50,492 nucleotides of DNA from an uncultured Helicobacteraceae bacterium (GCA_947311765.1 CAMZLS010000045.1:1-50492); one strand, 5' to 3'. Shown: positions 1 to 50,372, counted from the stretch's first letter. Numbers and translations are program-made. Notes: generated by a model not told the origin, from the letters alone.

Positions 1-287
1 ATAGCTTCATTATAGTTATCCAAAACTAAAATTTCTATTGTATTGTTATGGCAAAAATTCTCAAGAGAGCTGTTGAGTTTATCTATATCTAAGCGTCTAT
101 CTCTGCAATCTATATAGAGATAGCTCTTTTTCTTACATGTAAGGAGATATTGCTTAAGTAAGATTGTTTTTCCAGATTGTGTTACACCGATAAGTTGCAA
201 AGAATTTTCATTAATAATAACTTTTCTAGGAATAAATGAGCTTACATGTAAGCCTTGCAAATAATAATCATTCAATAAACTTTCCAT
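1..287 (-). CDS. P-loop ATPase, N-terminal fragment (cut by window edge)
   Basis: The reading frame is open from an ATG at 287 to the left edge, about 95 codons. AAGAGGG lies a few bases upstream of the ATG as a ribosome binding site. Residues 37-44 read GVTQSGKT, a Walker A motif. The stretch LVLDNYNE near residue 90 fits a Walker B strand. This resembles the ATPases of the AAA_14/DUF4143 kind, which bind ATP and have no settled role; the assignment is inference from the visible N-terminus only. Two copies of TTACATGTAA lie inside the gene, encoding LHV (residues 13-15) and TC in the string LLTCKK just after the Walker A helix. It is divergent from the ribosomal operon. Confidence 0.75.
   Translation of the reverse strand, partial: MESLLNDYYLQGLHVSSFIPRKVIINENSLQLIGVTQSGKTILLKQYLLTCKKKSYLYIDCRDRRLDIDKLNSSLENFCHNNTIEILVLDNYNEA
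133..142. repeat. TTACATGTAA copy 1
   Basis: Exact palindrome with C/G flanks (CTTACATGTAAG), inside the partial ATPase gene, read as L-T-C-K. Confidence 0.95.
242..251. repeat. TTACATGTAA copy 2
   Basis: Second copy in the same ATPase gene, 99 bases after the first, C/G flanked, read as L-H-V near the N-terminus. Confidence 0.95.
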
Positions 288-379
288 AAAAACCCTCTTA
301 TTTTTGTTTAGTATTTTAACACTTCCTTATTAAAAGGAAATAAAATAACTCCAAATTAAGACCAAGCCCCCTAAAACCC

Positions 380-408
380 TTGAATTAAGAGAAATAAGTC
401 GGTATAAT
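380..408 (+). promoter_or_regulatory. Sigma-70 type promoter of the S10 operon
   Basis: TTGAAT (380-385) and TATAAT (403-408) are separated by 17 bases, an unusually complete -35/-10 pair. Transcription would start near 415, giving a leader of about 50 bases before rpsJ. The rest of 288-464 shows AT-rich DNA and no gene. Confidence 0.7.
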
Positions 409-424
409 TCCGCTCCCTTTAATA

Positions 425-442
425 GTTAGGCAGTGACCTAAC
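425..442 (+). promoter_or_regulatory. Leader hairpin before rpsJ
   Basis: GTTAGG (425-430) and CCTAAC (437-442) form a perfect 6-bp stem with the 6-base loop CAGTGA. It lies in the predicted 5' leader of the ribosomal operon, 22 bases before the rpsJ ATG. Feedback control of the S10 operon through its leader is known in E. coli via L4, but this short hairpin does not resemble that structure, so a regulatory role is only suggested. Confidence 0.4.
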
Positions 443-464
443 GAGTTCTTTATAAGGAAAAAAT

Positions 465-776
465 ATGGAAAAAATTCGTTTAAAACTTAGAGCCTATGAT
501 CATCGTGTACTCGATCGTTCAGTAGCATCTATCGTTGAAGCTGTAAAGCGTACGGGTGCGGAAATCCGCGGCCCAATCCCTTTGCCAACTAAGATTCGTA
601 AATATACAGTATTGAAGTCTGTACACGTTAATAAAGATTCACGTGAGCAGTTTGAGATTCGTATGCATGCTCGTTTGATTGATATCGTTTCTGCTACGCC
701 AGATACGGTTGACTCTCTTATGAAACTAGATCTTGCACCAGAAGTGGACGTTGAAGTTCGCTCTATGGATAAGTAA
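465..776 (+). CDS. rpsJ: Ribosomal protein S10
   Basis: First gene of the ribosomal operon. The 103-residue product matches the family length and starts [20 protein letters not shown], with the conserved GPIPLPTK segment in the middle. S10 is part of the small-subunit head and, as NusE, also joins transcription antitermination. An AAGG ribosome binding site lies 7 bases before the ATG. It is preceded by a good promoter and a leader hairpin. Confidence 0.97.
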
Positions 777-786
777 GGAGTAACTG

Positions 787-1362
787 ATGGAATATATTGT
801 TGAAAAAATCGGCATGAGCCGTACAATCACAGTACCAGCTAAACCTGTTACCCTTCTTAAAGTGGTAGAGGTTAAAGTATGTGAAGTAAATGATGGCACT
901 GCTATCGTTGCTTACAGTAATGGTAAAAAAACAAATAAAACAGTTGAAGGTAAACAGAAGAAATATGATATTTCTGCTGACTTCAATCGCTTTGAAACAA
1001 TGGAAGTTGCTAACACAGAGGCAGGTGATTTAGATCTTGCTCCACTGAGTGAAGCTACTGTTGTAAAAACGAGTTTTAATACTAAAGGTCGCGGTTTTAC
1101 TGGTGTTATGAAACGCTGGAATTTCGGTGGTGGACCAGCTGCACACGGTCACCGTTTTCATAGAACGGGTGGTTCAATCGGTAATGCTGAGTGGCCAGGT
1201 CGTGTAATGAAGGGTCGTAAAATGGCAGGACAACACGGTAATACTAAAAATACAGTAAAAAATGAGATTCTTTCATTTGATGCTGAAAATGGAGTATTAG
1301 CTGTTATTGGTTCTGTGTCAGGTCCAAATGGTGGACTAGGTCGTATAAAGGTTGTTAAATAA
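787..1362 (+). CDS. rplC: Ribosomal protein L3
   Basis: 191-residue large-subunit protein, somewhat shorter than the E. coli protein. The conserved loop reaching the peptidyl transferase centre is visible as [13 protein letters not shown] around residues 137-149. Ribosome binding site TAAGGAG, which includes the rpsJ stop codon, sits 6 bases before the ATG. Its last stop base is the first base of the rplD ATG (TAATG), so the two are probably translationally coupled. Confidence 0.97.
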
Positions 1363-1973
1363 TGAGCGCTATTGTACTTAATGAAAATTTTGAAAAAGCA
1401 TCTGAGCTAGCATTACCAGAGAGCTTTGAGGGTATCCACTCTCATAACCTTTATCTGTATGTAAAATCATATCAAGCAGCACTTCGTGCGAATACTGCAA
1501 CGGCCAAAGGTCGTTCAGAAGTTCGTGGTGGTGGTAAAAAACCATGGGCTCAAAAAGGTCGTGGTGGTGCTCGTGCTGGTTCTACTCGTTCTCCTATCTG
1601 GGTAGGTGGTGGTAAGGCTTTTGGGCCGAGCAACAACCGTAACTATATCCAAAAAGTGAACAAAAAACAGAAAAAACTTGCATTGAATTTTGCTCTTGAT
1701 GAGCATTCAAAAGCAGGGTCGTTATATGTTGTTGATAGCATTAACGTAGAGTCTGGTAAAACAAAAGATGCAAAAGCTATCTTTGATAAAATCGGTGCTC
1801 GTGATGTATTGTTTGTAAAAGCAATCCTAGATGAAAAATCATTTTTAGCATTCCGCAATATCGACTCTTCTTATTTGATTGAAGAGCACGAACTTAACGC
1901 CTACCTTGTAGCGACATATCGCGCAATAGTTGTTGAGAAAGCGGTTTGGGAAAACCTGAGTAAAGAGGCATAG
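1362..1973 (+). CDS. rplD: Ribosomal protein L4
   Basis: 203 residues. The basic extended loop that lines the exit tunnel is clear at about residues 47-85, with [19 protein letters not shown] and the following tryptophan. In E. coli L4 represses its own operon; whether this holds here is unknown. The start overlaps the rplC stop by one base and the next gene follows with no spacer. Confidence 0.97.
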
Positions 1974-2255
1974 ATGGCAGATATTACAGATATTAAATCA
2001 ATAATTTATACTGAAAAGACTTTAGCTCTTCAAGAAGATGGTGTTGTAGTAGTACAAACGTCTCCGCGTATGACTAAATCAGGTCTTAAAGAGGTGTTTC
2101 GTGAGTATTTTGGAATTATTCCTACAAAGATCAACTCACTAAACCAAGCGGGAAAAGTAAAACGTTTCCGTGGTGTTACTGGTAAACAAAATAACTTTAA
2201 AAAGTTTTATGTGACTTTACCAGAAGGCGCAGCAATTGAAAGTTTGGCGGTTTAA
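1974..2255 (+). CDS. rplW: Ribosomal protein L23
   Basis: 93 residues, normal length. L23 sits at the tunnel exit and is the docking site for signal recognition particle and trigger factor. The family motif YTEKTLAL appears at residues 12-19 and FREYFGI with KINSLN near residues 42-58. It begins on the base after the rplD stop. Confidence 0.95.
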
Positions 2256-2257
2256 TT

Positions 2258-3103
2258 ATGGCTATTAAAACATACAGACCATTAACACCGAGTCGTCGGT
2301 TTTATACAAACGTTGATAGTAGCGATATTACAGCAAAAGCATCAGTTCGTTCACTTCTTGTAAAACTTCCTGCACATGCTGGACGCAATAACAATGGACG
2401 CATCACTTCTCGTCATAGACAAGCAGGTGCTAAAAAACTTTATCGTATTATCGATTTCAAACGTAACAAGTTAAATATTCCAGCAACAGTAGCTGCAATT
2501 GAGTACGATCCATATCGTAACTGTCGTATTGCACTTCTTAACTATGCAGATGGTGAAAAACGTTATATCATTCAACCAAAAGGTTTGAATGTAGGTGATG
2601 TTATTAGCACAGCAGATGCAGGACTAGATATCAAAACTGGTAACGCAATGAAACTGATGAATATCCCTGTGGGTACATTAGTGCATAATATTGAGCTTAA
2701 ACCTGGTAAAGGCGGACAGATGGTTCGTTCTGCTGGTGGATCTGCTCAAATTATGGGTCGTGATGGTAAATACGTTTCACTACGTCTTCCATCTTCAGAA
2801 ATGCGTCTTGTTTTAGGTGAGTGTATTGCTACTATCGGTTCTGTTGGAAACGAAGAGTTTGCTAATATCGTTATCGCTAAAGCAGGTCGTCAACGTCACT
2901 TAGGGAAACGTCCACAGACTCGTGGTTCTGCAATGAACCCGATTGATCACCCGCACGGTGGTGGTGAAGGTAAAACGAACTCAGGTCGTCACCCAGTTAC
3001 TCCATGGGGTAAACCGACTAAAGGTGCGAAAACACGTCGTAAAAAAGCAAGTGATAAACTTATTATTACACGTCGTAAACCAAATGCGAAAAGGGTAGGT
3101 TAA
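2258..3103 (+). CDS. rplB: Ribosomal protein L2
   Basis: 281 residues. The RNA-binding core is recognisable in [20 protein letters not shown] (residues 45-64), and the C-terminal peptidyl-transferase segment in [15 protein letters not shown] with the histidine HPVTPWG. L2 is among the most conserved large-subunit proteins. It lies two bases after rplW. Confidence 0.97.
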
Positions 3104-3104
3104 G

Positions 3105-3380
3105 ATGGCTCGTTCAATAAAAAAAGGTCCATTTGTTGACGATCACTTAATGAAAAAAGTGCTCGCAGCTAAAGAAGAAAAAAGTAAAAAACCAATCAAA
3201 ACATGGTCACGTCGTTCAACGATTTTACCAGAGATGATCGGTTTAACTTTAAACGTTCATAACGGTCGCCAATTTGTTCCTGTTTATATAACAGAGAACC
3301 ATATTGGTTATAAACTTGGTGAATTTGCACCGACACGTACATTTAAGGGCCATAAGGGCTCTGTTCAGAAGAAGGTGTAG
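3105..3380 (+). CDS. rpsS: Ribosomal protein S19
   Basis: 91 residues beginning [19 protein letters not shown] and ending with the conserved [14 protein letters not shown]. It binds 16S rRNA in the head with S13. One base separates it from rplB. Confidence 0.96.
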
Positions 3381-3382
3381 TC

Positions 3383-3700
3383 GTGGCTAGAGCATTATTA
3401 AAATTCATTCGTGTTTCACCAATCAAATCACGTCTTATTGCGCGTGAAGTTCAAGGTATGAATGCTGAAGAGGCACTAGCTGCTTTAGAATTCACTCCAA
3501 ATAAAGCTGCAAAAATCATCTCTAAAGTTATTGCATCAGCAGTAGCAAATAGTGGTGAAGAAGCAGAAGATTGTATCATTAAATCTTGTCGTGTTGACAA
3601 TGGTCCGGTTTTAAAACGTTTCCGTCCACGTGCTCGTGGAATGGCTTCGGGTATCCGTAAACCAACAGCACATATCTTAGTAGAAGTAGAGGGCAAATAA
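3383..3700 (+). CDS. rplV: Ribosomal protein L22
   Basis: 105 residues, starting at a GTG two bases after the rpsS stop; no upstream ATG fits the frame. The start [18 protein letters not shown] matches the family N-terminus. The long hairpin toward the tunnel is represented by [20 protein letters not shown] near the C-terminus. Confidence 0.95.
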
Positions 3701-3701
3701 T

Positions 3702-4409
3702 ATGGGTCATAAAGTTAATCCTATTGGTCTTCGCCTTGGCATCAACCGTAACTGGGAGAGCCGCTGGTATCCAAATTTTAAATCTGCACCAGCAAGTTTA
3801 GGCGAAGATCACAAAATCCGTACTTTCTTGAAAAAAGAGCTTTACTATGCTGGTGTTTCTAACATCATCATTGAGCGTACGGCAAAACGTCTTCGTGTTA
3901 CTATTGTAGCAGCGCGTCCTGGTATCATTATTGGTAAAAAAGGTGCGGATATTGAGAAGCTAAAAGGGAGCCTTCAAGTGTTGATTGGTAAGCCTATCGC
4001 TGTTAATATCAAAGAAGAGAAAAAAGCACAAGCTTCTGCACAACTCGTAGCAGAAAATGTTGCAACACAACTTGAGCGTCGTGTTGCTTTTAGACGTGCT
4101 ATGAAAAAAGTGATGCAAGGTGCTCAGCGTTCAGGCGCTAAGGGTATCAAAATTGCTGTTGCTGGTCGTCTTGGTGGTGCTGAAATGGCACGTACTGAGT
4201 GGTATCTTGAGGGACGTGTTCCTCTTCATACTCTTCGTGCAAAAATCGATTACGGTTTTGCTGAAGCGAACACTACTTACGGAATCATTGGTATTAAAGT
4301 ATGGATCTTCAAAGGTGAAGTTCTTACAAAAGGTATCCAAGCAGAAGCAAAAGAAGAGAAGCGTGAGCGTCGTCCTAAGCGTGCACCACGTGAAAGAAAG
4401 GCGGACTAA
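3702..4409 (+). CDS. rpsC: Ribosomal protein S3
   Basis: 235 residues. The N-terminal domain begins [17 protein letters not shown] domain with the GxxG loop is visible in [17 protein letters not shown] around residues 73-89. The C-terminal tail is a basic and acidic stretch ([17 protein letters not shown]). S3 lies at the mRNA entry site of the small subunit. Confidence 0.97.
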
Positions 4410-4412
4410 ACC

Positions 4413-4838
4413 ATGTTAATGCCAAAAAGAACAAAATATCGTAAAATGATGAAAGGCCGTAATCGTGGTTATGCGCGTAGCGGTTATACTCTAGCATTTG
4501 GTGATATCGCACTTAAAGCAACAGAGGCAGGTCGTATCACTTCACGTCAAATTGAAGCGGCTCGTATTACTGCGACTCGTCATATTAAACGTCAAGGTAA
4601 AATCTGGATTCGTGTTTTTCCTGCTAAACCATTAACTGCAAAGCCTCTTGAAACTCGTATGGGTAAGGGTAAAGGTCCAGTTGATAAATGGGTAATGAAC
4701 ATTAAACCAGGTCGTATTATCTTTGAAATGGGTGGTATTCCAGAAGATGTTGCTCGCGAAGCATTAACACTTGCTATGCATAAGTTGCCATTTAAAACTA
4801 AGATTGTCACACAGGAGATGAATAATGAAATATTCTGA
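4413..4838 (+). CDS. rplP: Ribosomal protein L16
   Basis: 141 residues, beginning [19 protein letters not shown]. The first ATG is preferred because the family begins ML-x-PKRTK. L16 helps position A-site tRNA. The gene's last 14 bases overlap the start of rpmC, which points to coupled translation. Confidence 0.96.
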
Positions 4839-5010
4839 TTTGACAGAAAAGAGTACAGCAGATCTTCAAGCAATGCTTAAAGAGAAAAAAACTGAGCTTT
4901 TCACTATGAAGATCAAACAAAAAATGATGCAACTATCTAACACGACTGAGCTTCGTGTTGCTAAAAAAGATATTGCACGTATCAATACTGCACTTAGTGC
5001 AGCGAAATAA
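4825..5010 (+). CDS. rpmC: Ribosomal protein L29
   Basis: 61 residues of two helices, starting [20 protein letters not shown], typical for L29 at the tunnel exit beside L23. Its ribosome binding site (CAGGAG) is inside the end of rplP. Confidence 0.93.
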
Positions 5011-5019
5011 GGGGCGTTG

Positions 5020-5268
5020 ATGAGTAAACGTGAAATTCAAGGTAATGTTATTAAAGTTGCCGGTGACAAGACAGTAACAATTCTTACTGAACGCCGTGTA
5101 ATGCACTCTCGTTACCATAAAGTTGTAAAACGTTTCAAAAAGTACCTTGTACATGATGAAAGCAATCAGCTTAAAGTTGGTGATGAAATTGTTGCGGTTG
5201 AGTGCCGTCCAATGTCAAAATCTAAAAACTTTGAGCTTAAAAGTGTTGTTAAAGGAGCGCAGGGATGA
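5020..5268 (+). CDS. rpsQ: Ribosomal protein S17
   Basis: 82 residues of OB fold. The ATG at 5020 is chosen over the TTG at 5017 because AAGGGG ends seven bases before it and because [12 protein letters not shown] matches the family start. Conserved internal segment [20 protein letters not shown]. The stop overlaps the rplN ATG. Confidence 0.94.
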
Positions 5269-5633
5269 TACAGAGTTTTTCTCGTCTTAATGTTGCTGAT
5301 AACACTGGTGCAAAAGAGATCATGTGTATCAAAGTACTTGGTGGATCAAAACGTCGTTACGCATCTGTAGGTGACGTTATAGTTGCTTCAGTAAAAAAAG
5401 CGACACCAACAGGTAAGGTAAAAAAAGGTCAGGTTATTAAAGCTGTTATCGTTCGTACTCGCAAAGAAGTACAACGCGAGAATGGTTCATTAATTCGTTT
5501 TGATGATAATGCAGCGGTAATCCTTGACACAAAACAAGAGCCTATTGGTACTCGTATTTTTGGCCCTGTTGCTCGTGAAGTTCGATATTCAGGTTTTATG
5601 AAAATCGTATCTCTTGCTCCGGAGGTTGTATAG
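5265..5633 (+). CDS. rplN: Ribosomal protein L14
   Basis: 122 residues, exactly the usual length. It starts [19 protein letters not shown] and contains VVRTRKE-like segment [15 protein letters not shown]. The ATGA overlap with rpsQ indicates coupling; rplX follows with no gap. Confidence 0.96.
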
Positions 5634-5864
5634 ATGGCAAAGTTCAATTTTAAAAAGGGTGATACAGTAGAGATTCTTGCTGGTGACGATAAAGGCACTA
5701 AAGCAGAAGTTCTTGAAGTTATGCCTAAGAAAAATAAGGTAATCGTTTCTGGTGTTAAAACTGTGAAAAAAGCGATTAAACCTACTGAAGAGAATCCTCA
5801 AGGTGGCTTTCAAACAAAAGAGATGCCTATTGATGCTTCAAATGTAAAAAAAGTGGAGGCGTAG
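5634..5864 (+). CDS. rplX: Ribosomal protein L24
   Basis: 76 residues, shorter than the ~104 of E. coli. A KOW motif is clear near the N-terminus ([20 protein letters not shown]). L24 is an early assembly protein. No frameshift is visible and the stop is followed after three bases by rplE, so I take the short length as real. Confidence 0.93.
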
Positions 5865-5867
5865 TTT

Positions 5868-6419
5868 ATGGCACGTATGAAAGATAAGTACCTTGCTCTT
5901 AAGCCTCAACTTAAAGAGCAACTTGAAATTAAAAATGAGATGCAGATTCCTAAAGTAGAAAAGATCATGATTACTGTGGGTGCTGGTTTTGCGATGAAAG
6001 ATAACAAGCTTATCCAAAACATTCAAGACACTATCAGCCTTATTGCTGGTCAGCATGCTGCTGTAGTTATGGCTAAGAAATCAGTTGCAGGATTTAAAGT
6101 ACGTGAAGGAATGCCAGTTGGTGTTAAAGTAACTCTTCGTGGTGAAAACATGTACAACTTCCTTGATAAACTTATCTCTATTGCACTGCCTCGTATGAAA
6201 GACTTCCGTGGTGTGCCACGTAATGGTTTTGATGGTCGTGGTAACTACAACTTTGGTTTGACTGAGCAGTTGATTTTCCCAGAAGTTAGCTATGACTCAA
6301 TCATGCAAATTCACGGTATGAATATCACTGTGGTAACAACAGCAGCAAGTGACAAAGAAGGGTTCGCTCTTTTAGAAGCTCTTGGCATGCCATTTAGTAA
6401 AGGGGCAAATAATGGCTAA
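5868..6419 (+). CDS. rplE: Ribosomal protein L5
   Basis: 183 residues. It has the family segments [14 protein letters not shown] and [19 protein letters not shown] followed by DFRGV and [10 protein letters not shown]5 binds 5S rRNA in the central protuberance. Its last 8 bases overlap rpsN. Confidence 0.96.
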
Positions 6420-6597
6420 AAAGTCAATGATTGCAAAGCAAAAACGCACTCCTAAGTTTAAGGTTCGTGCTTATACTCGTTGTCAGATCTGTGGTCGTCC
6501 ACACTCTGTAATTCGTGATTTCGGAATATGCCGTATCTGCTTTAGAAAAATGGCAAATGAAGGTTTAATCCCAGGTGTTAGAAAGTCAAGCTGGTAA
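6412..6597 (+). CDS. rpsN: Ribosomal protein S14, zinc-binding short form
   Basis: 61 residues. The ATG at 6412, inside the end of rplE, is chosen because [20 protein letters not shown] is the family start; an in-frame upstream ATG at 6382 would add an unrelated tail. Four cysteines in CQICGR and CRICFR form the zinc site of the short (C+) S14. An AGGGG ribosome binding site is in rplE. Confidence 0.95.
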
Positions 6598-6654
6598 ACA
6601 GCTCGATACTCCTAGCAATAGCTGTCGAAAGACTAGCAATAATAAGGAAAATAA
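6598..6654 (+). other. 57-base gap between rpsN and rpsH
   Basis: This is the largest gap within the operon. ACAGCT (6598-6603) pairs with AGCTGT (6620-6625), and CTAGCAATA occurs twice (6612-6620 and 6633-6641). An AAGGAA ribosome binding site precedes rpsH. The stem could serve in mRNA processing or control by S8, which represses the spc operon in E. coli, but nothing here matches the known S8 site. Confidence 0.35.
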
Positions 6655-7050
6655 ATGGTTAATGATTTAATATCAGATTCTTTGACACGTATTCGTAATG
6701 CGGGTATGCGTCGTCTTGATGTTACAACACTTTTACACTCTAAATCTGTAGAAGCAGTTGTAGCTATCTTAGTTGATAAGGGCTACATAGAGAGCTTTAA
6801 TGTTATTGAAAATGGCGTAAAAAAATCTATCAATGTAGTTTTAAAGTATGATGAAAATGGTCGTACAGTTATCAATGAAATGAAACGTGTTTCTAAGCCT
6901 GGACGCCGTGTCTATAAAGGTAAAGAAGATATCAAACGTTTCAAAAATGGTTACGGTACTATTATCGTTTCAACTTCAAAAGGTATTCTTGCTAATGATA
7001 AAGCTTATGAGCTTGGTCTTGGTGGCGAAGTCCTTTGTACAGTATGGTAG
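6655..7050 (+). CDS. rpsH: Ribosomal protein S8
   Basis: 131 residues, starting [20 protein letters not shown]. The C-terminal RNA-binding motif is present ([32 protein letters not shown]). S8 binds the central domain of 16S rRNA. Confidence 0.96.
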
Positions 7051-7060
7051 GGGGTAGGTT

Positions 7061-7597
7061 ATGAGTCGTATTGGTAAAAAACCTGTTTCTGTTCCATCTG
7101 AAATAAAAGTTGCAATTAATGGTGATGAGATTACTTTTGAAAAAGGTAAAATCAAAGAAGTTCTTGATACTAAAGGCAATGTAGATTTTTCATTTGAAGA
7201 TAATACATTAACTTTTGCTACAAAATCTGATGATCGTAAAGATCGTGCATTTTGGGGAACATACCGTGCCTTAGCTGCAAATATCGTAACTGGTTTAACA
7301 ACAGGTTACACGAGACAACTTGAGATCAATGGTGTTGGTTACCGTGCTGCCGTTAAAGGTAAGGTACTTAACCTACAACTTGGTCACTCTCACGATATCA
7401 ATTACCCACTTCCAGAGGGTCTTGAAGCAGTAGTAGAGAAGAATGTGATTACACTTAAGAGTCATAACAAACAGACACTTGGTCAAGTGGCATCAGAGAT
7501 TCGTGCATTTCGTCCACCAGAGCCTTACAAAGGTAAAGGTGTTAAATACATGGATGAGCATATCGTGCGTAAAGCCGGTAAAACAGCTAAGAAATAA
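7061..7597 (+). CDS. rplF: Ribosomal protein L6
   Basis: 178 residues of two repeated domains, starting [17 protein letters not shown]. The conserved C-terminal segment is [17 protein letters not shown] near residues 148-164. L6 lies near the GTPase centre of the large subunit. It is ten bases after rpsH, with a GGGG-type ribosome binding site. Confidence 0.96.
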
Positions 7598-7609
7598 GGG
7601 AGGCGTATA

Positions 7610-7966
7610 ATGACAGCTAAAGATTTAAAAGCAAAAGTAGCAAGACGTCTTAAACGTAAGCGTCGTATTCGTGCAAAAATTTCAGGCACATCGGCAATGC
7701 CTCGTGTTTCTGTTTTTCGCTCTAACCGTTATTTGAGTGCACAAGCTATAGATGATACTACATCAACAACATTAGCTCACATTAACTCAAAAACATTGGC
7801 ATTAAAAGCAAACAAAGAAGATGCAGCTAAATTGGGTGAAGCTTTCGCAGCAACACTTAAAGCCGCAGGCATGACTGAAGTTGTTTTCGACCGTAATGGT
7901 TACCAATATCATGGCGTTGTAGCTGCGTTTGGTGACGCACTTCGTGCTAATGAAATCAAGTTTTAA
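7610..7966 (+). CDS. rplR: Ribosomal protein L18
   Basis: 118 residues. A basic N-terminus ([18 protein letters not shown]) is followed by [15 protein letters not shown] and the C-terminal [20 protein letters not shown]. It binds 5S rRNA together with L5. Confidence 0.95.
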
Positions 7967-7975
7967 GGGCTGATG

Positions 7976-8419
7976 ATGAATGATATCAACAGAGAAGATT
8001 TTGAAGAATCGATCGTAAACATCGGTCGTGTAACAAAAGTTGTAAAGGGTGGTCGTCGTTTTCGCTTCACTGCTCTTATCGTTGTTGGCGATAAAAAAGG
8101 CACTGTAGGTTACGGTGTTGGTAAAGCCAAAGAAGTTCCAGATGCTATCAAAAAAGCAGTAGATAATGCGTTTAAAAACCTGACTACTGTAAGCATTAAA
8201 GGGACAACAGTAGCACATGATATTGAGCATAAATATAATGCTTCTCGCGTACTACTTAAGCCAGCGTCTGAGGGTACTGGGGTTATCGCTGGTGGTGCGA
8301 TGCGTCCAGTTCTTGAGCTTGCAGGAATCCAAGATATCTTAACGAAATCTTTAGGTTCAAATAATCCAAATACTGTTGTTCGTGCTACAATTGAAGCACT
8401 TTCACGTCTAAAAGGATAA
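7976..8419 (+). CDS. rpsE: Ribosomal protein S5
   Basis: 147 residues from the second of two adjacent ATG codons. AAGGG at 7965-7969 is 6 bases from 7976 and only 3 from 7973, so the second is preferred; [19 protein letters not shown] also fits. The S5 motif [21 protein letters not shown] is visible near residue 20, and the C-terminal domain has [14 protein letters not shown]5 acts in decoding accuracy. Confidence 0.94.
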
Positions 8420-8422
8420 GGT

Positions 8423-8821
8423 ATGGCATTAGAAAACTTAACGCCTGCAGAGGGTTCGACTCATTCACGTAAGCGTGTAGGTCGTGGGCACTCTACAGGC
8501 TGGGGAAAAACAGCAGCGCGTGGACAAAATGGTCAAAAATCACGTTCAGGTTACAAGCGTAAGCGTAACTTTGAGGGTGGTCAGCAACCTCTTGCAAAGC
8601 GTATGCCAAAAATTGGTTTCTTCTCTCGTAACATTAAACCATATGTGATTAATGTTGAGCGTATTACTGTAGTAGCACAGCTTGAGGAAATTACAGTAGA
8701 ATCAATTCGTGCGGTTCATAAGATTGGTAAATCTGTGACTCGTGTCAAACTTGTTGGAGCATCTGCTGCGCATTTAGCTTCAAAAATTAAAGACGAAAAC
8801 GTTACTACAACTGGCAAATAA
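8423..8821 (+). CDS. rplO: Ribosomal protein L15
   Basis: 132 residues with the glycine- and arginine-rich N-terminus ([19 protein letters not shown]) and [15 protein letters not shown]. It follows rpsE by three bases, leaving no room for rpmD (L30), which many bacteria have here. The last stop base is shared with the secY ATG. Confidence 0.96.
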
Positions 8822-10083
8822 TGAACAAGCAATTAGTAAACAAGATCCTTATAACGATCGGGTTTCTCTTTCTGTACCGTTTACTGGCATATGTGCCAGT
8901 ACCTGGTGTTGACACGGCAGTAATTGCCTCATTTTTTGACTCTCACGCATCTGACTCTCTCGGACTTTTCAATATGTTTAGCGGTAAAGCTATTCAAAGA
9001 CTCTCTATTATTTCTCTTGGTATTATGCCTTATATCACTGCTTCGATTATCATGGAATTGCTCGCTGCAACTTTTCCAAATCTAGGACAGATGAAAAAAG
9101 AGCGTGATGGTATGGTGAAGTATATGCAAATCATCCGTTATGCAACGATTGCTATTACTGTAATTCAAGCAGTTGGCGTTAGCGTTGGTCTGCAAAGTCT
9201 TACAGGGCCTGATGGCAATAGTGCTATCTTGGTTGATCAAAACACATTTATTCTTGTAGCGGTTGTTTCTATGCTTGCGGGTACAATGCTATTGATGTGG
9301 ATTGGTGAACAGATTACACAGAGTGGGATTGGTAATGGTATATCATTAATCATCTTTGCAGGTATCGTCTCTTCAATTCCTGGTGCAATTGCGCACTCTG
9401 TGACTATGATTAATACAGGTGCTATGAGTTTTATTGTCTTAATTGGTATTTTACTCTTAGTTCTTGCGACTGTTTTTGTGATTATATATGTTGAGCTTGG
9501 TGAACGCCGTATTCCGGTAACGTATGCTAAGAAAACAATGATGCAAAATCAGAACAAGCGTGTAATGAATTATATTCCTATCAAGGTAAATTTATCTGGT
9601 GTTATTCCAGTTATCTTTGCGTCGGCTATTTTGATGTTTCCGATGACAGTGCTTTCAACAAGTACCAATCCAGTGATTCAAAGTATTACAGACTATTTGA
9701 ATCCAAATAGTTACTTTTTTAACTTTTTGACCTTTATGTTTGTTGTCTTTTTTGCATATTTTTATGCATCAATTGTCTTCAATGCAAAAGATATTTCAGA
9801 TAATCTTAAAAAGCAAGGTGGATTTATTCCTGGTGTGCGTCCTGGTGTTGCAACGGCAGAGTTTTTAAATGAAACTGCAAGTCGTTTAACATTTAGTGGT
9901 GCTATCTATCTTGGACTTGTGGCAACTTTACCGTTTATGATTATCAAAGGGATGGGCGTGCCTTTCTTCTTTGGTGGTACTGCGGTTTTAATCGTTGTTC
10001 AAGTTGCTCTTGATACCATGCGTAAAATTGAGGCTCAAGTTTATATGAGCAAGTATGAAACTCTTAGCGCGGTAGGTCTATAA
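8821..10083 (+). CDS. secY: Protein translocase subunit SecY
   Basis: 420 residues of about ten hydrophobic segments. Family landmarks include YRLLAYVPVPGVD near residue 20, the cytosolic loop ERRIPVTYAKK around residue 228, and GGFIPGVRPGVATAEFLN near residue 335. SecY forms the membrane channel for secreted and membrane proteins. Its TAATG junction with rplO suggests coupling to ribosomal protein synthesis. Confidence 0.97.
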   Translation: MNKQLVNKILITIGFLFLYRLLAYVPVPGVDTAVIASFFDSHASDSLGLFNMFSGKAIQRLSIISLGIMPYITASIIMELLAATFPNLGQMKKERDGMVKYMQIIRYATIAITVIQAVGVSVGLQSLTGPDGNSAILVDQNTFILVAVVSMLAGTMLLMWIGEQITQSGIGNGISLIIFAGIVSSIPGAIAHSVTMINTGAMSFIVLIGILLLVLATVFVIIYVELGERRIPVTYAKKTMMQNQNKRVMNYIPIKVNLSGVIPVIFASAILMFPMTVLSTSTNPVIQSITDYLNPNSYFFNFLTFMFVVFFAYFYASIVFNAKDISDNLKKQGGFIPGVRPGVATAEFLNETASRLTFSGAIYLGLVATLPFMIIKGMGVPFFFGGTAVLIVVQVALDTMRKIEAQVYMSKYETLSAVGL

Positions 10084-10086
10084 CCC

Positions 10087-10845
10087 ATGGCAATTGCGCT
10101 TCGCAAACCTCAAGAAATCGAAAAACTTCGTGCCGCTAACATCATTGTTAGCGGCGCACTCAAACTCCTTGAAGCAAATACAAAAGTTGGTATGAGCTTA
10201 AAAGAACTAGATAGCATGGCTGAAGATTATGTTCGTTCTCATGGAGCTAAACCCTCATTTAAAGGCCTTTACGGTTTTCCAAGTGCAGTGTGTACCTCAC
10301 TCAACAAAGTTATTATCCACGGGATTCCTAGTGATTATAAACTTCAAGAAGGTGATGTTATCGGTTATGATATTGGTACAGAACTCAATGGGTACTTTGG
10401 TGACGCTGCGGTGACTGTTCCTGTTGGAAAAATTACTGTAGAAGATGAAGCCTTGATAGCCTGCGCTAAAGATACGCTCTATTATGCTATTGAAAATATC
10501 AAAGTAGGGATGCGCTTTAAAGAGCTCTCTTACTTAATGGAGCAATTTATCATAAGCCAAGGCTATGTTCCTTTGCATAATTTTTGTGGTCACGGGATAG
10601 GTAAAAAGCCTCACGAAGAACCAGAAATACCAAACTATCTTGATGGAAAAAATCCTAAAGCAGGACCTAAAATCAAAAACGGAATGGTCTTTTGTTTGGA
10701 ACCGATGATATGCCAAAAAGAGACTGAGGCAGTTGTCTTGGAGAATGGTTGGGACGTAGTCAGTTCAGATGGCCTACGCGGGTCACATTATGAACATACA
10801 GTTGCTGTGATAAACGGCAGAGCTGAAATTCTTTCACAAAGTTAG
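10087..10845 (+). CDS. map: Methionine aminopeptidase, type I
   Basis: 252 residues. The five metal ligands of the family are all found: D95 and D106 (GYDIGTELNGYFGDAAV), H169 (HNFCGHGIGKKPHEEPE), E205 (FCLEPMI) and E236 (HYEHTVAV). The enzyme removes the initiator methionine from new proteins. It lies three bases after secY and before infA, an arrangement common in bacterial spc operons. Confidence 0.97.
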   Translation: MAIALRKPQEIEKLRAANIIVSGALKLLEANTKVGMSLKELDSMAEDYVRSHGAKPSFKGLYGFPSAVCTSLNKVIIHGIPSDYKLQEGDVIGYDIGTELNGYFGDAAVTVPVGKITVEDEALIACAKDTLYYAIENIKVGMRFKELSYLMEQFIISQGYVPLHNFCGHGIGKKPHEEPEIPNYLDGKNPKAGPKIKNGMVFCLEPMICQKETEAVVLENGWDVVSSDGLRGSHYEHTVAVINGRAEILSQS

Positions 10846-11103: not shown

Positions 11104-11125
11104 TTACATGTAAGCTTACATGTAA
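11104..11125. repeat. TTACATGTAA copies 3 and 4, abutting pair
   Basis: Two exact copies (11104-11113 and 11116-11125) are separated by GC. Together they make one perfect 22-bp palindrome that could fold as a hairpin on either strand. It lies between the ends of infA and the convergent small gene at 11141, where a two-way terminator would be expected, but no run of T follows. Confidence 0.95.
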
Positions 11126-11285: not shown

Positions 11286-11489
11286 TTAGCCTTTTACTAA
11301 TTTCTTAATCTCTTTAGGAAGATGAGCAAAAGGGATGTTTTGTTGCCCTTTTTTTGCATTTTCACCTAGCTCTTTGACATCAACATTCATAGCTGATGGG
11401 TAAAGTCGTATCAGTTTGTACTCTATTTCATTGACCTTACATGTAATGTTTCTTTCTGAGAGTTCTACGCTCTTTTTTTTCTTTGCCAT
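11286..11489 (-). CDS. Conserved hypothetical protein, 67 aa
   Basis: A small, lysine-rich soluble protein starting MAKKKKSVELSERNITCKVN and ending PFAHLPKEIKKLVKG. No family is recognised. Its ATG shares one base with the stop of the CvfB-like gene (TAATG), so the two are coupled. A copy of TTACATGTAA encodes ITCK at residues 15-18. Confidence 0.7.
   Translation of the reverse strand: MAKKKKSVELSERNITCKVNEIEYKLIRLYPSAMNVDVKELGENAKKGQQNIPFAHLPKEIKKLVKG
11437..11446. repeat. TTACATGTAA copy 5
   Basis: Inside the 67-residue hypothetical gene, read as I-T-C-K on the minus strand. Confidence 0.95.
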
Positions 11490-12441: not shown

Positions 12442-12767
12442 GTAGAGCAGTTGGTGATAAGGCGGAGGAGCTTACATGTAAATATCTTTTAGAGAGTGGT
12501 TTTGAGATTATTGAGCGTAATTTTTATAGCCGTTTTGGGGAGATAGATATTATCGCAAAGCGTGGAGATGTTTTGCATTTTATTGAGGTTAAGAGTGGTC
12601 TAGATTTTGAACGCGCGGTACAAAATCTTACACCCACAAAGATAGGACGCATCTTGAAAACAAGTGATATATATCTGAAAAAGCATGCTCTAGTATGTAG
12701 CTATCAGATAGATGCGATTATCGTTGTTGGTGAGAGTTGTGAGCATCTCGAATCTATAACATTGTAA
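12438..12767 (+). CDS. YraN family (UPF0102) putative endonuclease
   Basis: 109 residues from a GTG start. The family core is present: GDKAEE at residues 6-11, then FGEIDIIAKRGDVLHFIEVKS at about 34-54, whose E-D-E-K residues match the PD-(D/E)xK nuclease-like fold. The family often lies near translation genes, and its exact function is unsettled. LTCK at residues 12-15 is encoded by a TTACATGTAA copy and lies at the start of a conserved helix. Confidence 0.88.
   Translation: MSRAVGDKAEELTCKYLLESGFEIIERNFYSRFGEIDIIAKRGDVLHFIEVKSGLDFERAVQNLTPTKIGRILKTSDIYLKKHALVCSYQIDAIIVVGESCEHLESITL
12472..12481. repeat. TTACATGTAA copy 6
   Basis: In yraN, read as L-T-C-K at residues 12-15. Confidence 0.95.
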
Positions 12768-17117: not shown

Positions 17118-17791
17118 CGCACGCTTACATGTAAGGCTTTTGAGAGTTTGTCAGTAGCGAAACCCATAAGGGGTTTTGGTAGATCGTCAATAGTCTTTAC
17201 CCCAGTTTTAAATTCTTGTATATAATAAGTGCCCGCATACTCTCTTTGTGCAAGATCGTCGATAATTAGATTAATATCATCAACATCTAATAGGTCAGTG
17301 TGAAGGGTTGTTCTTACTTCAAAATCACTATTGCTCGTAAGTAAAAGATCTAGGGTGTTTTGAAAATGCTCAAACTTTCTATTTTTGGTGATTGTGTAAA
17401 ATTTACTGCGAGGTGCTTTATAATCTAAGGCTATAAAATCAACAAGATTTGCTTCGAGCAGATCTTTTATGACTTTGGTATTGATTCCATTGGTGTCAAG
17501 TTTTATTTTGTAGCCAAGGGCTTTAATGGATTTGCAAAATTCTTGAAGCCCATGATATTCTGTCGCTTCGCCACCGCTAAGAACAACACCCTCCAATAAA
17601 CCTTGGCGACATTTTAAAAAATTGAGCGTCTCTTCTATGCTCTTTTTCCCTTTTGAAAAAACTATTTCAGGGTTATAGCAGTATTGGCACTGCATATTGC
17701 ACCCAGCGAACCAGATGATTGCACTAGGATACCGTGGATAATCTAGTAAGCTAAAGGGTGTTATATCATAAACAGGAGAGAGGTTATGCAC
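17108..17791 (-). CDS. nrdG: Anaerobic ribonucleotide reductase activating protein (radical SAM)
   Basis: 227 residues from a GTG start that overlaps the preceding small ORF by 8 bases. The radical SAM cluster is C31-x3-C35-x2-C38 (AGCNMQCQYCYN), followed by the SAM-binding VVLSGGEAT. NrdG-type enzymes make the glycyl radical on class III ribonucleotide reductase. This length and N-terminus (DITPFSLLDYPRYPSAIIWF) fit the NrdG2-like subgroup. TTACATGTAA encodes LHV close to the C-terminus. Confidence 0.92.
   Translation of the reverse strand: MHNLSPVYDITPFSLLDYPRYPSAIIWFAGCNMQCQYCYNPEIVFSKGKKSIEETLNFLKCRQGLLEGVVLSGGEATEYHGLQEFCKSIKALGYKIKLDTNGINTKVIKDLLEANLVDFIALDYKAPRSKFYTITKNRKFEHFQNTLDLLLTSNSDFEVRTTLHTDLLDVDDINLIIDDLAQREYAGTYYIQEFKTGVKTIDDLPKPLMGFATDKLSKALHVSVRQT
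17125..17134. repeat. TTACATGTAA copy 8
   Basis: Read as L-H-V in the C-terminal tail of nrdG (KALHVSVRQT), C/G flanked. Confidence 0.95.
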
Positions 17792-27986: not shown

Positions 27987-27996
27987 TTACATGTAA
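27987..27996. repeat. TTACATGTAA copy 13
   Basis: Intergenic, C/G flanked, 10 bases after the stop of the SPFH gene in the 88-base gap before hisIE. Confidence 0.95.
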
Positions 27997-32396: not shown

Positions 32397-32823
32397 AAAA
32401 GTAATCATATCAGCCTGTCTTTTGGGCGAAGCATGTCGTTATGATGGTAAGTCAAAACCAGCCTACCATGTAAGCGAAGCCTATAAAGAGTATGAGATTA
32501 TTCCTTTCTGCCCTGAAGCACCTATCTTAGGGACTCCTAGAGAGCGTATCTCTGTTATTGAGATGGCAAACAAAGCCTTACATGTAAGGGGTGATGAAAG
32601 CGGTCGAGACCTTAGCAAGCATCTTAAATTTGAGGTTTTATCTTTTTTAAAAGAGCATCATGATGTCACGCTAGCCGTTTTAAAATCAAAGTCACCCTCA
32701 TGTGGTTTTGGCACTACTCCGATATTCAACATTCAAAGAGAACAGATAGCTCTAGGCAATGGAATCGCCGCACAGATTTTTCACGATAGAGGCTTGCATG
32801 TAAAGAGTGAACTCGGTATGTAA
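32368..32823 (+). CDS. DUF523 family protein
   Basis: About 151 residues from GTG at 32368, or 146 from TTG at 32383; both overlap the dehydrogenase gene and neither has a clear ribosome site. Family landmarks: ISACLLGEACRYDGKSK, FCPEAPILGTPRE and LKSKSPSCGFGT, with several conserved cysteines. Function unknown. It holds one exact TTACATGTAA (ALHVRG) and two near copies (32465, 32795), one of which also reads LHV. Confidence 0.85.
   Translation: MRLNPLSSPKKVIISACLLGEACRYDGKSKPAYHVSEAYKEYEIIPFCPEAPILGTPRERISVIEMANKALHVRGDESGRDLSKHLKFEVLSFLKEHHDVTLAVLKSKSPSCGFGTTPIFNIQREQIALGNGIAAQIFHDRGLHVKSELGM
32578..32587. repeat. TTACATGTAA copy 15
   Basis: In the DUF523 gene, read as L-H-V, C/G flanked. 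Confidence 0.95.
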
Positions 32824-38941: not shown

Positions 38942-39438
38942 TTCTCTAGGTAAGCTTTAGAGCGTTTCATAAGTATTGTGAGAGTATGATCTGTTTTATC
39001 TATAAACTCTTTATCATCCTTACATGTAAAGATATCAATATTATGTTTCATCTGTGCTGTTTCAAGAGCAGTTGAGAGCTTACATATAATTTTATTGTCA
39101 ATGATAATGAGCGTTATTGCAATTTTTCCATCTAAGAGGGGACTCTGTATAGGTTTTAAAAGATATGTTTTAATATTCTTGTAGAGTTCTAGTTGTTTTT
39201 TTTCATCATTATGTGCAGAGATGAGCTTAATATGTACCCCTCGTTTGGCTGCCTTAATAAGACTCTTTTTTATCTTGTAGTGATTAAAATTATCTGTTAA
39301 AATAAAGATAGATTTTTCTGCGTTATTTATCTTTTTAGTAAGATGATGGATGGTATCGTCATACTCATCAGGTAAAAAATAACTATCTTGAGAGAAGAGT
39401 GAGAGAATAAAAAGAGATATTGCGAGTAAGAGTTTCAT
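38938..39438 (-). CDS. Phospholipase D-like secreted protein, motif degenerate
   Basis: 166 residues with a signal peptide (MKLLLAISLFILSLFS). A PLD-like fold is suggested by NNAEKSIFILTDNFNHYKIKK and IKAAKRGVHIKLISAHND. The HxK(x4)D motif is not intact: the position reads KIICKLSTALETAQ. It may be an inactive relative. TTACATGTAA encodes FTCK in DIFTCKDDKE. The 3' end overlaps fliR by four bases. Confidence 0.7.
   Translation of the reverse strand: MKLLLAISLFILSLFSQDSYFLPDEYDDTIHHLTKKINNAEKSIFILTDNFNHYKIKKSLIKAAKRGVHIKLISAHNDEKKQLELYKNIKTYLLKPIQSPLLDGKIAITLIIIDNKIICKLSTALETAQMKHNIDIFTCKDDKEFIDKTDHTLTILMKRSKAYLEN
39020..39029. repeat. TTACATGTAA copy 16
   Basis: In the PLD-like gene, read as F-T-C-K on the minus strand. 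Confidence 0.95.
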
Positions 39439-43931: not shown

Positions 43932-43941
43932 TTACATGTAA
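43932..43941. repeat. TTACATGTAA copy 17
   Basis: Intergenic, between the flagellin-like gene and the tRNA gene, next to the putative flagellin -10 box. Confidence 0.95.
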
Positions 43942-44126: not shown

Positions 44127-44149
44127 TAGAGTAACAAAAAGGGCGGAAA

Positions 44150-45189: not shown

Positions 45190-45221
45190 TTGGTACCTTT
45201 TTTGCTTATGCTTACATGTAA

Positions 45222-45231
45222 ACTAAGTGTG
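45222..45231. repeat. TTACATGTAA copy 18
   Basis: Intergenic, 32 bases after the amidase stop and 10 before the DnaJ-domain gene. Confidence 0.95.
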
Positions 45232-45241
45232 AGAGGATGCC

Positions 45242-46048: not shown

Positions 46049-46927
46049 CAAGACTTTAAAATCTTCAGCACTATAAAGTTTAAGTGTATCACTTGCTATT
46101 GAGAGTAACTCATTTGAAAATCCGCGTTTTGAAAAAAGCACAATTAAATCAGGACTTAAGACTAATTTTTGGCACTTCTCTTCTAGTTTATGGAGCTCTT
46201 TTTTATTTATCTTGTGATTACGCCACTTGCACTCTCCAGCGATTATTTTCTCTTTCTCATCTAAGGCTAGAATATCTATCTCTACATTACGATCCCAGTA
46301 GCTTCCTGAGCTTATTATGATGGATTTATGGGTATATTTGAGTAAAAGATTAGAGAGTTCTTCAAAAATATAGCCACTAAAAGCTTGATGATGTTGTCTA
46401 TACGACTCAAGAACAGTATCAAAATTACCCCTCTCTATCTGCTTGTGATGCGGCGCAATAAAGTAAAACCAAAAACGCAAAAAAGGAGAGCTAAAGCGTA
46501 ATTTATGTGAAATGCGATGACGCGCTACTTCGCGTTTGAGTTGCTGTTTTGGGTAGAGTTTTTCTGGAGGCTTTTCGCGTGAGCGTTCGAGTTCGATAAT
46601 GTTGTTTTCACGTAAAAAACTAAGAGCCACGCTCCCTCTATTAGGAGATAAACGAGCTCTCTTAAAAGCAGAATGAATGCGTCTATCTCCAATGGCAATA
46701 GCGCTTAGTAACTTACGAATATCATCATCATCTTGAATATCAAAGGCTATATCATTATAGAGTTCACCGTAATTATCAAGAATATGAGTAGCAATAAGAG
46801 TCTCTATAGGAATATCAAGATCTATGCTTTTTTTGAAGCCACCAAAAATTGCGAATGCGTCAATACATTGCTCCATATCATTGGGGTAGTTTCGGGTGTA
46901 AAAGGAGCGAAAGACCTCTAAGAGCAT
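46031..46927 (-). CDS. DUF234-containing protein (PD-(D/E)xK-like C-terminus)
   Basis: 298 residues. It resembles the C-terminal half of DEXX-box ATPases with DUF234: a winged-helix region (about 85-135) and a nuclease-like core RNVEIDILALDEKEKIIAGE followed by CKWR, giving the E-D-E-K pattern. There is no P-loop, so the ATPase half is missing or was never present. The putative ATG overlaps the last base of a TTACATGTAA copy, and no ribosome site is visible upstream. Confidence 0.75.
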   Translation of the reverse strand: MLLEVFRSFYTRNYPNDMEQCIDAFAIFGGFKKSIDLDIPIETLIATHILDNYGELYNDIAFDIQDDDDIRKLLSAIAIGDRRIHSAFKRARLSPNRGSVALSFLRENNIIELERSREKPPEKLYPKQQLKREVARHRISHKLRFSSPFLRFWFYFIAPHHKQIERGNFDTVLESYRQHHQAFSGYIFEELSNLLLKYTHKSIIISSGSYWDRNVEIDILALDEKEKIIAGECKWRNHKINKKELHKLEEKCQKLVLSPDLIVLFSKRGFSNELLSIASDTLKLYSAEDFKVLLRDNP

Positions 46928-46952
46928 TACATGTAACCGTAGTTACATGTAA
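46927..46952. repeat. TTACATGTAA copies 19 and 20, hairpin pair
   Basis: Two copies (46927-46936 and 46943-46952) with CCGTAG between. Adding the flanking C and G gives an 11-bp inverted repeat with a 4-base loop CGTA. The pair fills most of the 30-base gap after the lipase-like gene and touches the start codon of the DUF234 gene. Confidence 0.95.
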
Positions 46953-46957
46953 GGGTT

Positions 46958-49021: not shown

Positions 49022-49033
49022 GAGTTATACTCC

Positions 49034-49043
49034 TTACATGTAA
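49034..49043. repeat. TTACATGTAA copy 21
   Basis: In the lipase-like leader: it lies 10-19 bases beyond the -10 box and its end merges into the AAGGAG ribosome site. Confidence 0.95.
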
Positions 49044-49053
49044 ATAATCCTTG

Positions 49054-49059
49054 ATTATA
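49054..49059 (-). promoter_or_regulatory. -10 box of the lipase-like gene
   Basis: TATAAT on the minus strand, about 32 bases before the ATG. The predicted start of transcription is near 49047, just before the palindrome. Confidence 0.5.
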
Positions 49060-49091
49060 CCCTTAGCTCTTTTAGAGTTTCGTAAAATGTT

Positions 49092-50372
49092 CTATTTTTT
49101 TGAAAGTTCACCGGCAAATCGTACAATATCAAGCCCATAGAGATCTCGTAAATCTTTAATGACTTTAGAGAGTTTATGCTGAGATAAATCACTATCAAAA
49201 TCTATAAGAGAGAGTTCTCTATGGGAGTTACATGTAAAGTGCGAACAGCTTAGTGAGAGGCGAATAATCTTAAGATTTTTATAGCTATCAGCCTTATAAA
49301 AAAGTGATAAGCAAAGTTCGCGAAACCAGAACTCATTAAAGAGGCGATGTGCGGTAATATTGGCTGAGGAGTGTTGCGATAATTCATACGAGATACCCAC
49401 ATGATAAGTCGTTGGTAGCGCGCCTAGACGCATAACAGCGTGGGAAAGATGGCGTGAGAGTATGATGATGCGACGACGCAGTTCTCCTCTATCAATGATG
49501 CTATCAAAGGTGCGAGAAATACCTATAGATTTTCTTACATGTAAGGGTTTTATCTCTTGGGTGTCTTCGCCATTAACTTGTTTGTAAAGTGAGCGAGAAT
49601 AGGGACTCCAAGACTCTACAATACCACGAGATTTTAAAAGTTTTCCAAGGGTATCTATCTGAAAGGAGTGAAGCTTTTTTTGCATAGATTTTCCAATGCC
49701 AGGGAAATCTTCAATGGGAATATTTGTAACAAATTCTAAATGCTCATGGGGCATAACAGTCTTAGAGCCAAAAGGTTTCGCCCAAGAGGTTGCCAATTTA
49801 GCGATAGGCTTTGTTGTCGCTGCCCCGATAGAGACAGGCAGATTCAAATCACGCCAAATCTCATGACGAAGCATATCTATAAAAAATGGCACCTCCTCTT
49901 CATCAATCCACCCTTTCAAATCTCCATAAAACTCATCTATGCTGGCTTGTTCTATAAGTGGAATACGCTTTGAGAGATACTCATGAAGTGCATGTGAAAG
50001 CTCTTTATACAGTGCCATATTGGGAGCTTTAATAATAAGCTCAGGACACAAAGAGAGTGCCTCGCGAATAGTCATTCCCGTTTTAATCCCAAACTTACGC
50101 GCCTCATAGCTAGAGGTCGTCAAAATCCCTCGAATACGACCATCAGGGTCTTTAAATTTGTCTATATCTTTTTGACTTGGGTCATATTTTTGAAAAAAAG
50201 CCCCCAAAAAAGCCCCACTATTGTCAAGATTTATACTCTGTTGCCCACTCTTTTGCGCAAAGATATAAGTATCCCCACGCCCACCAATAGCCACAGGCTT
50301 ATGAGAAAGAGAGCTATCACGGGTACGCTCAGCAGAGACAAAAAAGCAGTCAAGGTCGATATGTATTTTCAT
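49092..50372 (-). CDS. dinB: Y-family DNA polymerase, DinB (Pol IV) type
   Basis: 426 residues. Catalytic acidic residues are in HIDLDCFFVSAE (D6, D8) and QASIDEFYGDL. The fingers motif SSYEARKFGIKTGM follows an insertion of roughly 45 residues (after VAIGGRGD, about residues 35-78) that E. coli Pol IV lacks. The DNA-binding HhH region reads FPGIGKSMQKKL, and the little finger contains RKSIGISRTFD. It copies damaged DNA. Two TTACATGTAA copies are inside (LHV and TC). Confidence 0.92.
   Translation of the reverse strand: MKIHIDLDCFFVSAERTRDSSLSHKPVAIGGRGDTYIFAQKSGQQSINLDNSGAFLGAFFQKYDPSQKDIDKFKDPDGRIRGILTTSSYEARKFGIKTGMTIREALSLCPELIIKAPNMALYKELSHALHEYLSKRIPLIEQASIDEFYGDLKGWIDEEEVPFFIDMLRHEIWRDLNLPVSIGAATTKPIAKLATSWAKPFGSKTVMPHEHLEFVTNIPIEDFPGIGKSMQKKLHSFQIDTLGKLLKSRGIVESWSPYSRSLYKQVNGEDTQEIKPLHVRKSIGISRTFDSIIDRGELRRRIIILSRHLSHAVMRLGALPTTYHVGISYELSQHSSANITAHRLFNEFWFRELCLSLFYKADSYKNLKIIRLSLSCSHFTCNSHRELSLIDFDSDLSQHKLSKVIKDLRDLYGLDIVRFAGELSKK
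49228..49237. repeat. TTACATGTAA copy 22
   Basis: In dinB, read as F-T-C-N near the C-terminus. Confidence 0.95.
49535..49544. repeat. TTACATGTAA copy 23
   Basis: In dinB, read as L-H-V (KPLHVRKS), just before the little finger; C/G flanked. Confidence 0.95.

Follow-up and report, generated by a model that had tools for sequence, protein, structure and literature searches.

To our knowledge, the highly iterated palindrome HIP1 of cyanobacteria has gone without an agreed function for decades. HIP1 (GCGATCGC) and the alternate HIPs are palindromes spread over whole genomes, in coding and non-coding DNA and patchily among relatives, and they are accompanied by orphan methyltransferases and deviate mainly at their outer positions (PMC4390886). 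Other words serve in DNA uptake. In Campylobacter jejuni, the solitary adenine methyltransferase CtsM (Cj0208) marks RAATTY and only DNA marked in this way is taken up (PMC8468864); this motif is short and very common (~28,000 per genome), and the enzyme is annotated as FokIM_2 in C. coli (PMC4687069). The DUS of Neisseriaceae and the USS of Pasteurellaceae are words of 9-12 bp found about once per 1-2 kb, in tolerant protein positions and in intergenic hairpin pairs, restricted to families and with dialects in their flanks. Their behaviour is drive-like, and the described DUES are not palindromes (PMC1939737).

Here, we describe the word TTACATGTAA, which recurs throughout a stretch of 50,492 nucleotides (hereafter the window) and the genome it comes from, and which behaves as a highly iterated palindrome and partly as an uptake sequence. 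It is a different word from HIP1, AT-rich and 10 bp long, residing in another phylum (its hosts are Campylobacterales) and associated with one clade of D12 adenine methyltransferases, whereas HIP1 has GATC plus CGATCG enzymes. HIP1 proper is ruled out, as TTACATGTAA differs from GCGATCGC and the host is not cyanobacterial. With the CtsM system it shares the order and a solitary adenine methyltransferase, but it is a rarer, enriched 10-mer. It resembles DUS and USS in its density, placement, hairpin pairs, family restriction and dialects, and differs from them in being a palindrome, in its only modest enrichment of one-mismatch sites, in having no known receptor and in the implication of a methyltransferase. 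A preliminary description of the window had likened the word to HIP1 or to an uptake sequence; the association with an orphan methyltransferase fits such systems, although the word is not HIP1 and lacks the non-palindromic core of DUS. That description knew of no role for the word in Campylobacterota, and our literature search, which covered open-access papers and not subscription journals or REBASE, likewise returned no earlier description in bacteria and only unrelated uses. The word represents a highly iterated palindrome in another phylum, apparently independent of HIP1, and its culturable hosts (Sulfurospirillum), natural losses and clean deletions of the candidate enzyme make the question of how a palindrome is kept up at a thousand sites a testable one.

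Abundance and placement of the word

The window contains 23 exact copies of TTACATGTAA, a perfect 10-bp palindrome (Table 1). Dinucleotide-preserving shuffles average 0.13 copies and never exceed 2, and Markov orders 1-3 predict ~0.06-0.11 sites. All 23 copies counted in the preliminary description are thus present and far above chance, for which it had estimated ~0.2; 22 of its 23 start positions are correct, and the copy listed at 45222 really starts at 45212. The copies carry no strand assignment, as the word reads identically on both strands. Our recount also agrees with its eight complete copies of the extended form CTTACATGTAAG (8/23), and the preference it saw for C before and G after the word returns in a 281-kb sample of the host genome, with C at 63% and T at 23% of preceding positions and the complement after.

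Table 1. Copies of TTACATGTAA and the word-free operon in the window.
Feature	Position	Strand	Context
TTACATGTAA copy	133..142	.	Upstream of ribosomal S10 operon
TTACATGTAA copy, complete CTTACATGTAAG form	242..251	.	Upstream of S10 operon
Ribosomal protein operon (S10 ... L2 ... SecY, map)	465..10845	+	Zero TTACATGTAA
TTACATGTAA copy	11104..11113	.	Intergenic; close pair with 11116
TTACATGTAA copy	11116..11125	.	Intergenic; close pair with 11104, 12-bp step
TTACATGTAA copy	11437..11446	.	Intergenic
TTACATGTAA copy	12472..12481	.	Same place in G004 and G021 despite diverged flanks
TTACATGTAA copy	13675..13684	.	Within TonB-dependent receptor gene
TTACATGTAA copy	17125..17134	.	End of radical-SAM gene
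TTACATGTAA copy	20524..20533	.	Within GAPDH gene; conserved in G001
TTACATGTAA copy	20642..20651	.	Within GAPDH gene
TTACATGTAA copy	20789..20798	.	Within GAPDH gene
TTACATGTAA copy	26921..26930	.	Within DUF2393 gene; G001 counterpart with 1 mismatch
TTACATGTAA copy	27987..27996	.	Intergenic; conserved in G001 and G016
TTACATGTAA copy	31135..31144	.	Within aldehyde dehydrogenase gene; conserved in G005
TTACATGTAA copy	32578..32587	.	Within 2-thiouracil desulfurase-like gene
TTACATGTAA copy	39020..39029	.	Within PLD-like gene
TTACATGTAA copy	43932..43941	.	Intergenic, divergent genes either side
TTACATGTAA copy	45212..45221	.	Intergenic (45222 in preliminary description)
TTACATGTAA copy	46927..46936	.	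Between two genes; close pair with 46943
TTACATGTAA copy	46943..46952	.	Close pair with 46927, 16-bp step
TTACATGTAA copy	49034..49043	.	Intergenic
TTACATGTAA copy	49228..49237	.	Within IMS (Y-family) DNA polymerase gene
TTACATGTAA copy	49535..49544	.	Within IMS (Y-family) DNA polymerase gene

The host genome (G000; 1,980,870 bases in 148 contigs) holds 872 copies where a handful would be expected, and none of the reversed word that served as a control. This count is far above the Markov expectation, as the preliminary reading of the word as a genuine signal implies, and the 281-kb sample gives a similar picture, with 137 exact copies against ~0.5 expected. Chance or base composition as the source of the abundance is ruled out by the shuffles, the Markov counts and the genome count. 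Counting of one-base variants, which the same description had proposed, revealed only a modest enrichment (41 one-mismatch sites against ~16 expected in the sample), with the mismatch mostly at positions 1 and 3. In the word-rich genome G055, 30 of 48 one-mismatch sites deviate at position 1, a bias that is weaker in the host genome. Both the genome-wide overrepresentation and the concentration of deviations at the ends of the word are thus found here as in HIPs. Around the constant core, flanks form dialects, with C before and G after in the host genome and T before and A after in Sulfurospirillum.

A simple ORF call places ~80% of the sites in ORFs, yet they are ~3 times denser between genes. 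Nearly all genic copies are read in one of two frames, as Leu-His-Val or as x-Thr-Cys-x; the remaining frame contains a stop codon. The ribosomal protein operon is free of the word, against ~5 copies expected at the sample density (p ~0.006), and on this case the word seems to be kept out of highly expressed genes. A prophage as the identity of this word-free stretch is ruled out, since the stretch is the operon itself. Even spacing was sought and not found, the intervals between copies being Poisson-like. A polar chromosome signal such as Chi or KOPS, which would be asymmetric and strand-biased, is ruled out by the symmetry of the word.

Close pairs of copies 12-40 bp apart recur and are capable of forming hairpins. 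Those 12-18 bp apart (loci L154, L165 and L166, and 11104-11125 and 46927-46952 in the window) make perfect hairpins, like the terminator pairs of DUS and USS, and one hairpin pair of G016 (12692/12706) is retained in the word-poor G029.

Distribution among genomes

A survey of 400 genomes from the order found high counts in only two families, both of sulfur bacteria, namely that of the window (f1) and one other (f20), while ~20 other families have 0-11 copies. Equal density in unrelated genomes, which would speak against the signal proposed in the preliminary description, is therefore not what we see. Counts range from 1,496 to 49 within the genus Sulfurospirillum and from 1,062 to 0 within f1. 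When named genomes were scanned for close pairs, the word-rich organisms proved to be Sulfurospirillum, Sulfurospirillaceae, a Sulfurimonas MAG and further MAGs of Campylobacterales, from which f20 is very probably Sulfurospirillaceae and f1 very probably Sulfurimonadaceae. Close pairs occur, for instance, in the cultured strains S. diekertiae JPD-1 and S. cavolei UCH003. Abundance of TTACATGTAA is not general to Campylobacterota but limited to two families and patchy inside each. Paired copies also turned up as isolated matches in Prevotellaceae, Dysgonamonadaceae, Clostridium and others (L006, L052 and other single loci); these are probably repeats of local extent or regulatory sites, with no connection to the signal seen genome-wide.

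Conservation and decay of copies

Copies are gained and lost by point substitution. Conservation across orthologues, another check that the preliminary description had put forward, gave opposite results for a word-rich and a word-poor relative. Between the Sulfurospirillum genomes G055 and G284, which are 91% identical and have ~1,230 copies each, 134 of 139 aligned words are unchanged, compared with 46% of control 10-mers in the same alignments (binomial p ~1e-38), and divergence is 0.6% inside the word against ~9% in the flanks on either side. The word-poor G110 (49 copies), nested in the same clade, has kept 0 of 112 words against 12% of control 10-mers, and differs at 33% of word positions against 21-24% in the flanks. 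At the protein level, amino-acid identity at the word codons is 96% to G284 and 53% to G110, and that of neighbouring codons (3-12 residues away) is 76%, which shows that it is the DNA word that is conserved and not the protein. In other words, a DNA word dictates amino acids, and conservation of its codons lasts no longer than that of the word. In genomes with the system, TTACATGTAA is itself under constraint and located in otherwise variable protein positions; without the system, its decay is at least as fast as neutral change, with the reservation that word positions are unusually tolerant. No obvious substitute word was found in G110.

Recently acquired islands are depleted in the word: 49 kb of strain-unique DNA in G284 holds 3 copies, and the 351 kb of shared DNA holds 142 (p ~3e-6).

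Association with an orphan methyltransferase

The family PF02086 (D12 adenine methyltransferases) discriminates word-rich from word-poor genomes. The enzymes are 325-340 aa long, and the copy of the host genome (G000:C148:22661-23644) matches the profile with E = 2e-42. The enzyme tree separates one clade, group B, from its group A relatives plus some deep lineages; group B is a separate, faster-evolving clade relative to group A. It contains the enzymes of G000, G001, G022, G004, G021 and of the Sulfurospirillum genomes with 1,057-1,496 words, and the tree thereby unites members of both word-rich families; the word-rich G055, G085, G097, G199 and G005 were placed in group B by length and score only, outside the tree. 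Within Sulfurospirillum, genomes with the group B gene have 376-534 words per Mb and those without it 19-481 (Mann-Whitney p = 3e-4, and p = 4e-5 for genomes at least 90% complete, kinship being ignored in both comparisons).

No restriction gene was recognisable beside the group B gene at the loci examined. The gene overlaps the end of a recO-like gene in the host genome (L360), comes directly after the gene for the exonuclease VII large subunit in G004 and G021 (L353 and L358; another genus of the family) and sits between CheY-like and transglutaminase-like genes in Sulfurospirillum. Two of these neighbours, recO and exonuclease VII, are recombination genes. In the genus of the window and a neighbouring genus, the methyltransferase gene itself holds 2-3 copies of TTACATGTAA (L360 in G000:C148, L357 in G001 and L362 in G022). 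The Sulfurospirillum genome G055 has an extra group A methyltransferase on a second contig (G055:C2; L342), a short way upstream of a gene resembling a transposase (HTH, by eye IS21-like).

With the locus of G239 as probe, six genomes (G146, G110, G179, G308, G267 and G361) retain both flanks around a locus reduced by roughly one gene length. On a rooted tree built on a separate 5-kb locus, both G146, whose sister is G239 (1,127 words), and G110 fall within the group B clade (support 0.83-0.99), and their lack of the gene hence represents two independent deletions. After these clean deletions, 238 words are left in G146 and 49 in G110, in comparison with >1,000 in relatives. The other four genomes, together with G210, branch earlier, and their empty site may be ancestral. 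Since ancient word positions are shared by genomes without group B, the word is older than the presence of that gene at the locus in Sulfurospirillum.

The association has exceptions. G210 (934 words) and G122 (570) are without a detected member of the methyltransferase family, and G156 is also exceptional. Group A relatives are widespread in the order, including many wordless genomes of other families and nearly all genomes of one largely wordless genus, probably Helicobacter. Genomes with group A have 2 to 605 words, and intermediate counts (278-663) accompany group A or deep-branching enzymes. High counts thus go with the group B clade only and not with the whole methyltransferase family, and presence of a methyltransferase is neither strictly necessary nor sufficient for them. 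The link is a correlation with two clean natural deletions, from which cause is inferred, and deletion of the gene could also follow the loss of the word system rather than cause it. We consider it somewhat probable that the group B enzyme takes part mechanistically in maintaining the word. A methyltransferase target was among the candidates in the preliminary description, and word density does follow an orphan D12 enzyme, with a target inside the word as a plausible further step.

Group A presumably includes CATG-specific enzymes of the HpyIM/NlaIII type that are conserved in Helicobacter. The M.NlaIII/HpyIM-type methyltransferases probably belong to the same protein family, with strong profile matches in Helicobacter-like genomes, and CATG is the centre of TTACATGTAA; group B differs in forming its own faster-evolving clade and in that a restriction partner was not found at the loci examined. 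Given this core and the probable specificity of group A, one would first suspect methylation of an adenine within CATG. Mentions of HpyIM occur in PMC2749054 and PMC4687069. Campylobacter genomes encode a distant homologue of ~372 aa, which is probably CtsM.

Other trans-acting candidates were less informative. The N6_N4_Mtase family (PF01555) does not correlate with the word, and a comparison of gene content in the first 400 kb of G055 and G284 with that of G110 gave no convincing candidate. ComEC is present in every one of 65 genomes, whether rich or poor in the word, and intact in nearly all, so it does not discriminate; its loss as the cause of word loss was looked for and not seen, the gene being intact in G110 and G146.

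Possible functions

Loss of the word in lineages that deleted one solitary DNA-marking enzyme hints that the chromosome carries a chemical "self" tag. In the explanation that we favour, TTACATGTAA would be a genome-wide self-mark, kept by selection or drive only as long as a trans-acting system is present, and the orphan D12-class N6-adenine methyltransferase of group B would be one component of that system. The enzyme would methylate the CATG-containing core, and the methylated word would be the signal by which DNA of the own kind is recognised during uptake. Such a model merges the logic of CtsM, in which uptake depends on methylation, with that of DUS and USS, in which uptake drives the accumulation of a long word. 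Four links of this chain are inferred, namely maintenance caused by the enzyme, a target of the enzyme inside the word, competence of the hosts and a function in uptake. The presence of ComEC makes DNA uptake possible in these hosts, and the depletion of the word in recent acquisitions is likewise a trait of uptake sequences. On the other side, ComEC is intact in the word-poor G110 and G146, where loss of competence is not seen with loss of the word, spacing is Poisson rather than even, and known uptake sequences are non-palindromic (PMC1939737) while TTACATGTAA is a palindrome. The whole chain, from self-mark through methyltransferase to methylated uptake signal, is accordingly offered as a tentative proposal, with a real chance of being right but short of an even one. 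That the word would be the first palindromic, methylation-dependent signal of DNA self-recognition, with an enzyme clade of two families carrying the very word it marks and DNA exchange fixing that word chromosome-wide at the expense of protein sequence, is a bolder statement that we regard as rather doubtful.

The main rival places the word entirely inside the cell. In a HIP1-like manner, the orphan methyltransferase and the word could form an intracellular system, for methyl-directed repair or for control of replication or transcription, with no role in uptake. The parallel is close, comprising a palindrome, an orphan methyltransferase that would act on an inner core, replacement or loss of the word along with the enzyme, and deviations at outer positions (PMC4390886). 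However, the only detailed model, in which methyl-dependent mismatch repair creates words (PMC4390886), requires a MutH/MutL-like pathway, and MutL gave no match above the cut-off in the 34 genomes tested (0/34), compared with 11 of 14 controls; nor is word gain visibly faster than retention of existing words. We rate a purely internal role as unlikely, though deserving serious attention.

An exact 10-bp palindrome would also suit a dimer, and the word might be bound by a nucleoid protein or a chromosome organiser that acts as a dimer (Noc-, SlmA- or BldD-like), with the methyltransferase as bystander or modulator. Its recurrence at ~1 per 2 kb over the chromosome, the strong site-by-site conservation and the absence from newly acquired DNA agree with this, and random spacing and absence from the ribosomal operon carry no weight either way. 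Such a protein alone leaves unexplained why two nested word-poor lineages have both lost the group B gene, and we find this account improbable.

More improbable still is a classical uptake sequence that a surface receptor would read in unmethylated form, as for DUS and USS, and for which the association with the methyltransferase would be coincidental. In its favour are a density similar to that of DUS and USS, sites in tolerant positions and in intergenic pairs, a highly expressed operon free of the word, depleted islands and flank dialects that differ between families, but every described uptake word is non-palindromic (PMC1939737), and the enzyme is associated with word density through two nested deletions.

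An origin by insertion, as a mobile element or its footprint, has the high copy number in its favour and almost no likelihood otherwise, being contradicted by orthologue alignments in which counterparts in relatives differ by substitution, most aligned sites lying in ungapped alignments with no 10-12 bp insertion, and by copies that share no flanking sequence past a few bases, in line with the preliminary view that the word is unlike a mobile repeat.

Apart from TTACATGTAA, several short palindromes are strongly under-represented in the host genome sample (the window and L151-L170), with observed/expected ratios of 0.18 for CCGG, 0.39 for GATC, 0.35 for ACGT, 0.33 for GGCC and 0.07 for CTCGAG, a depletion that is as expected under several restriction systems.
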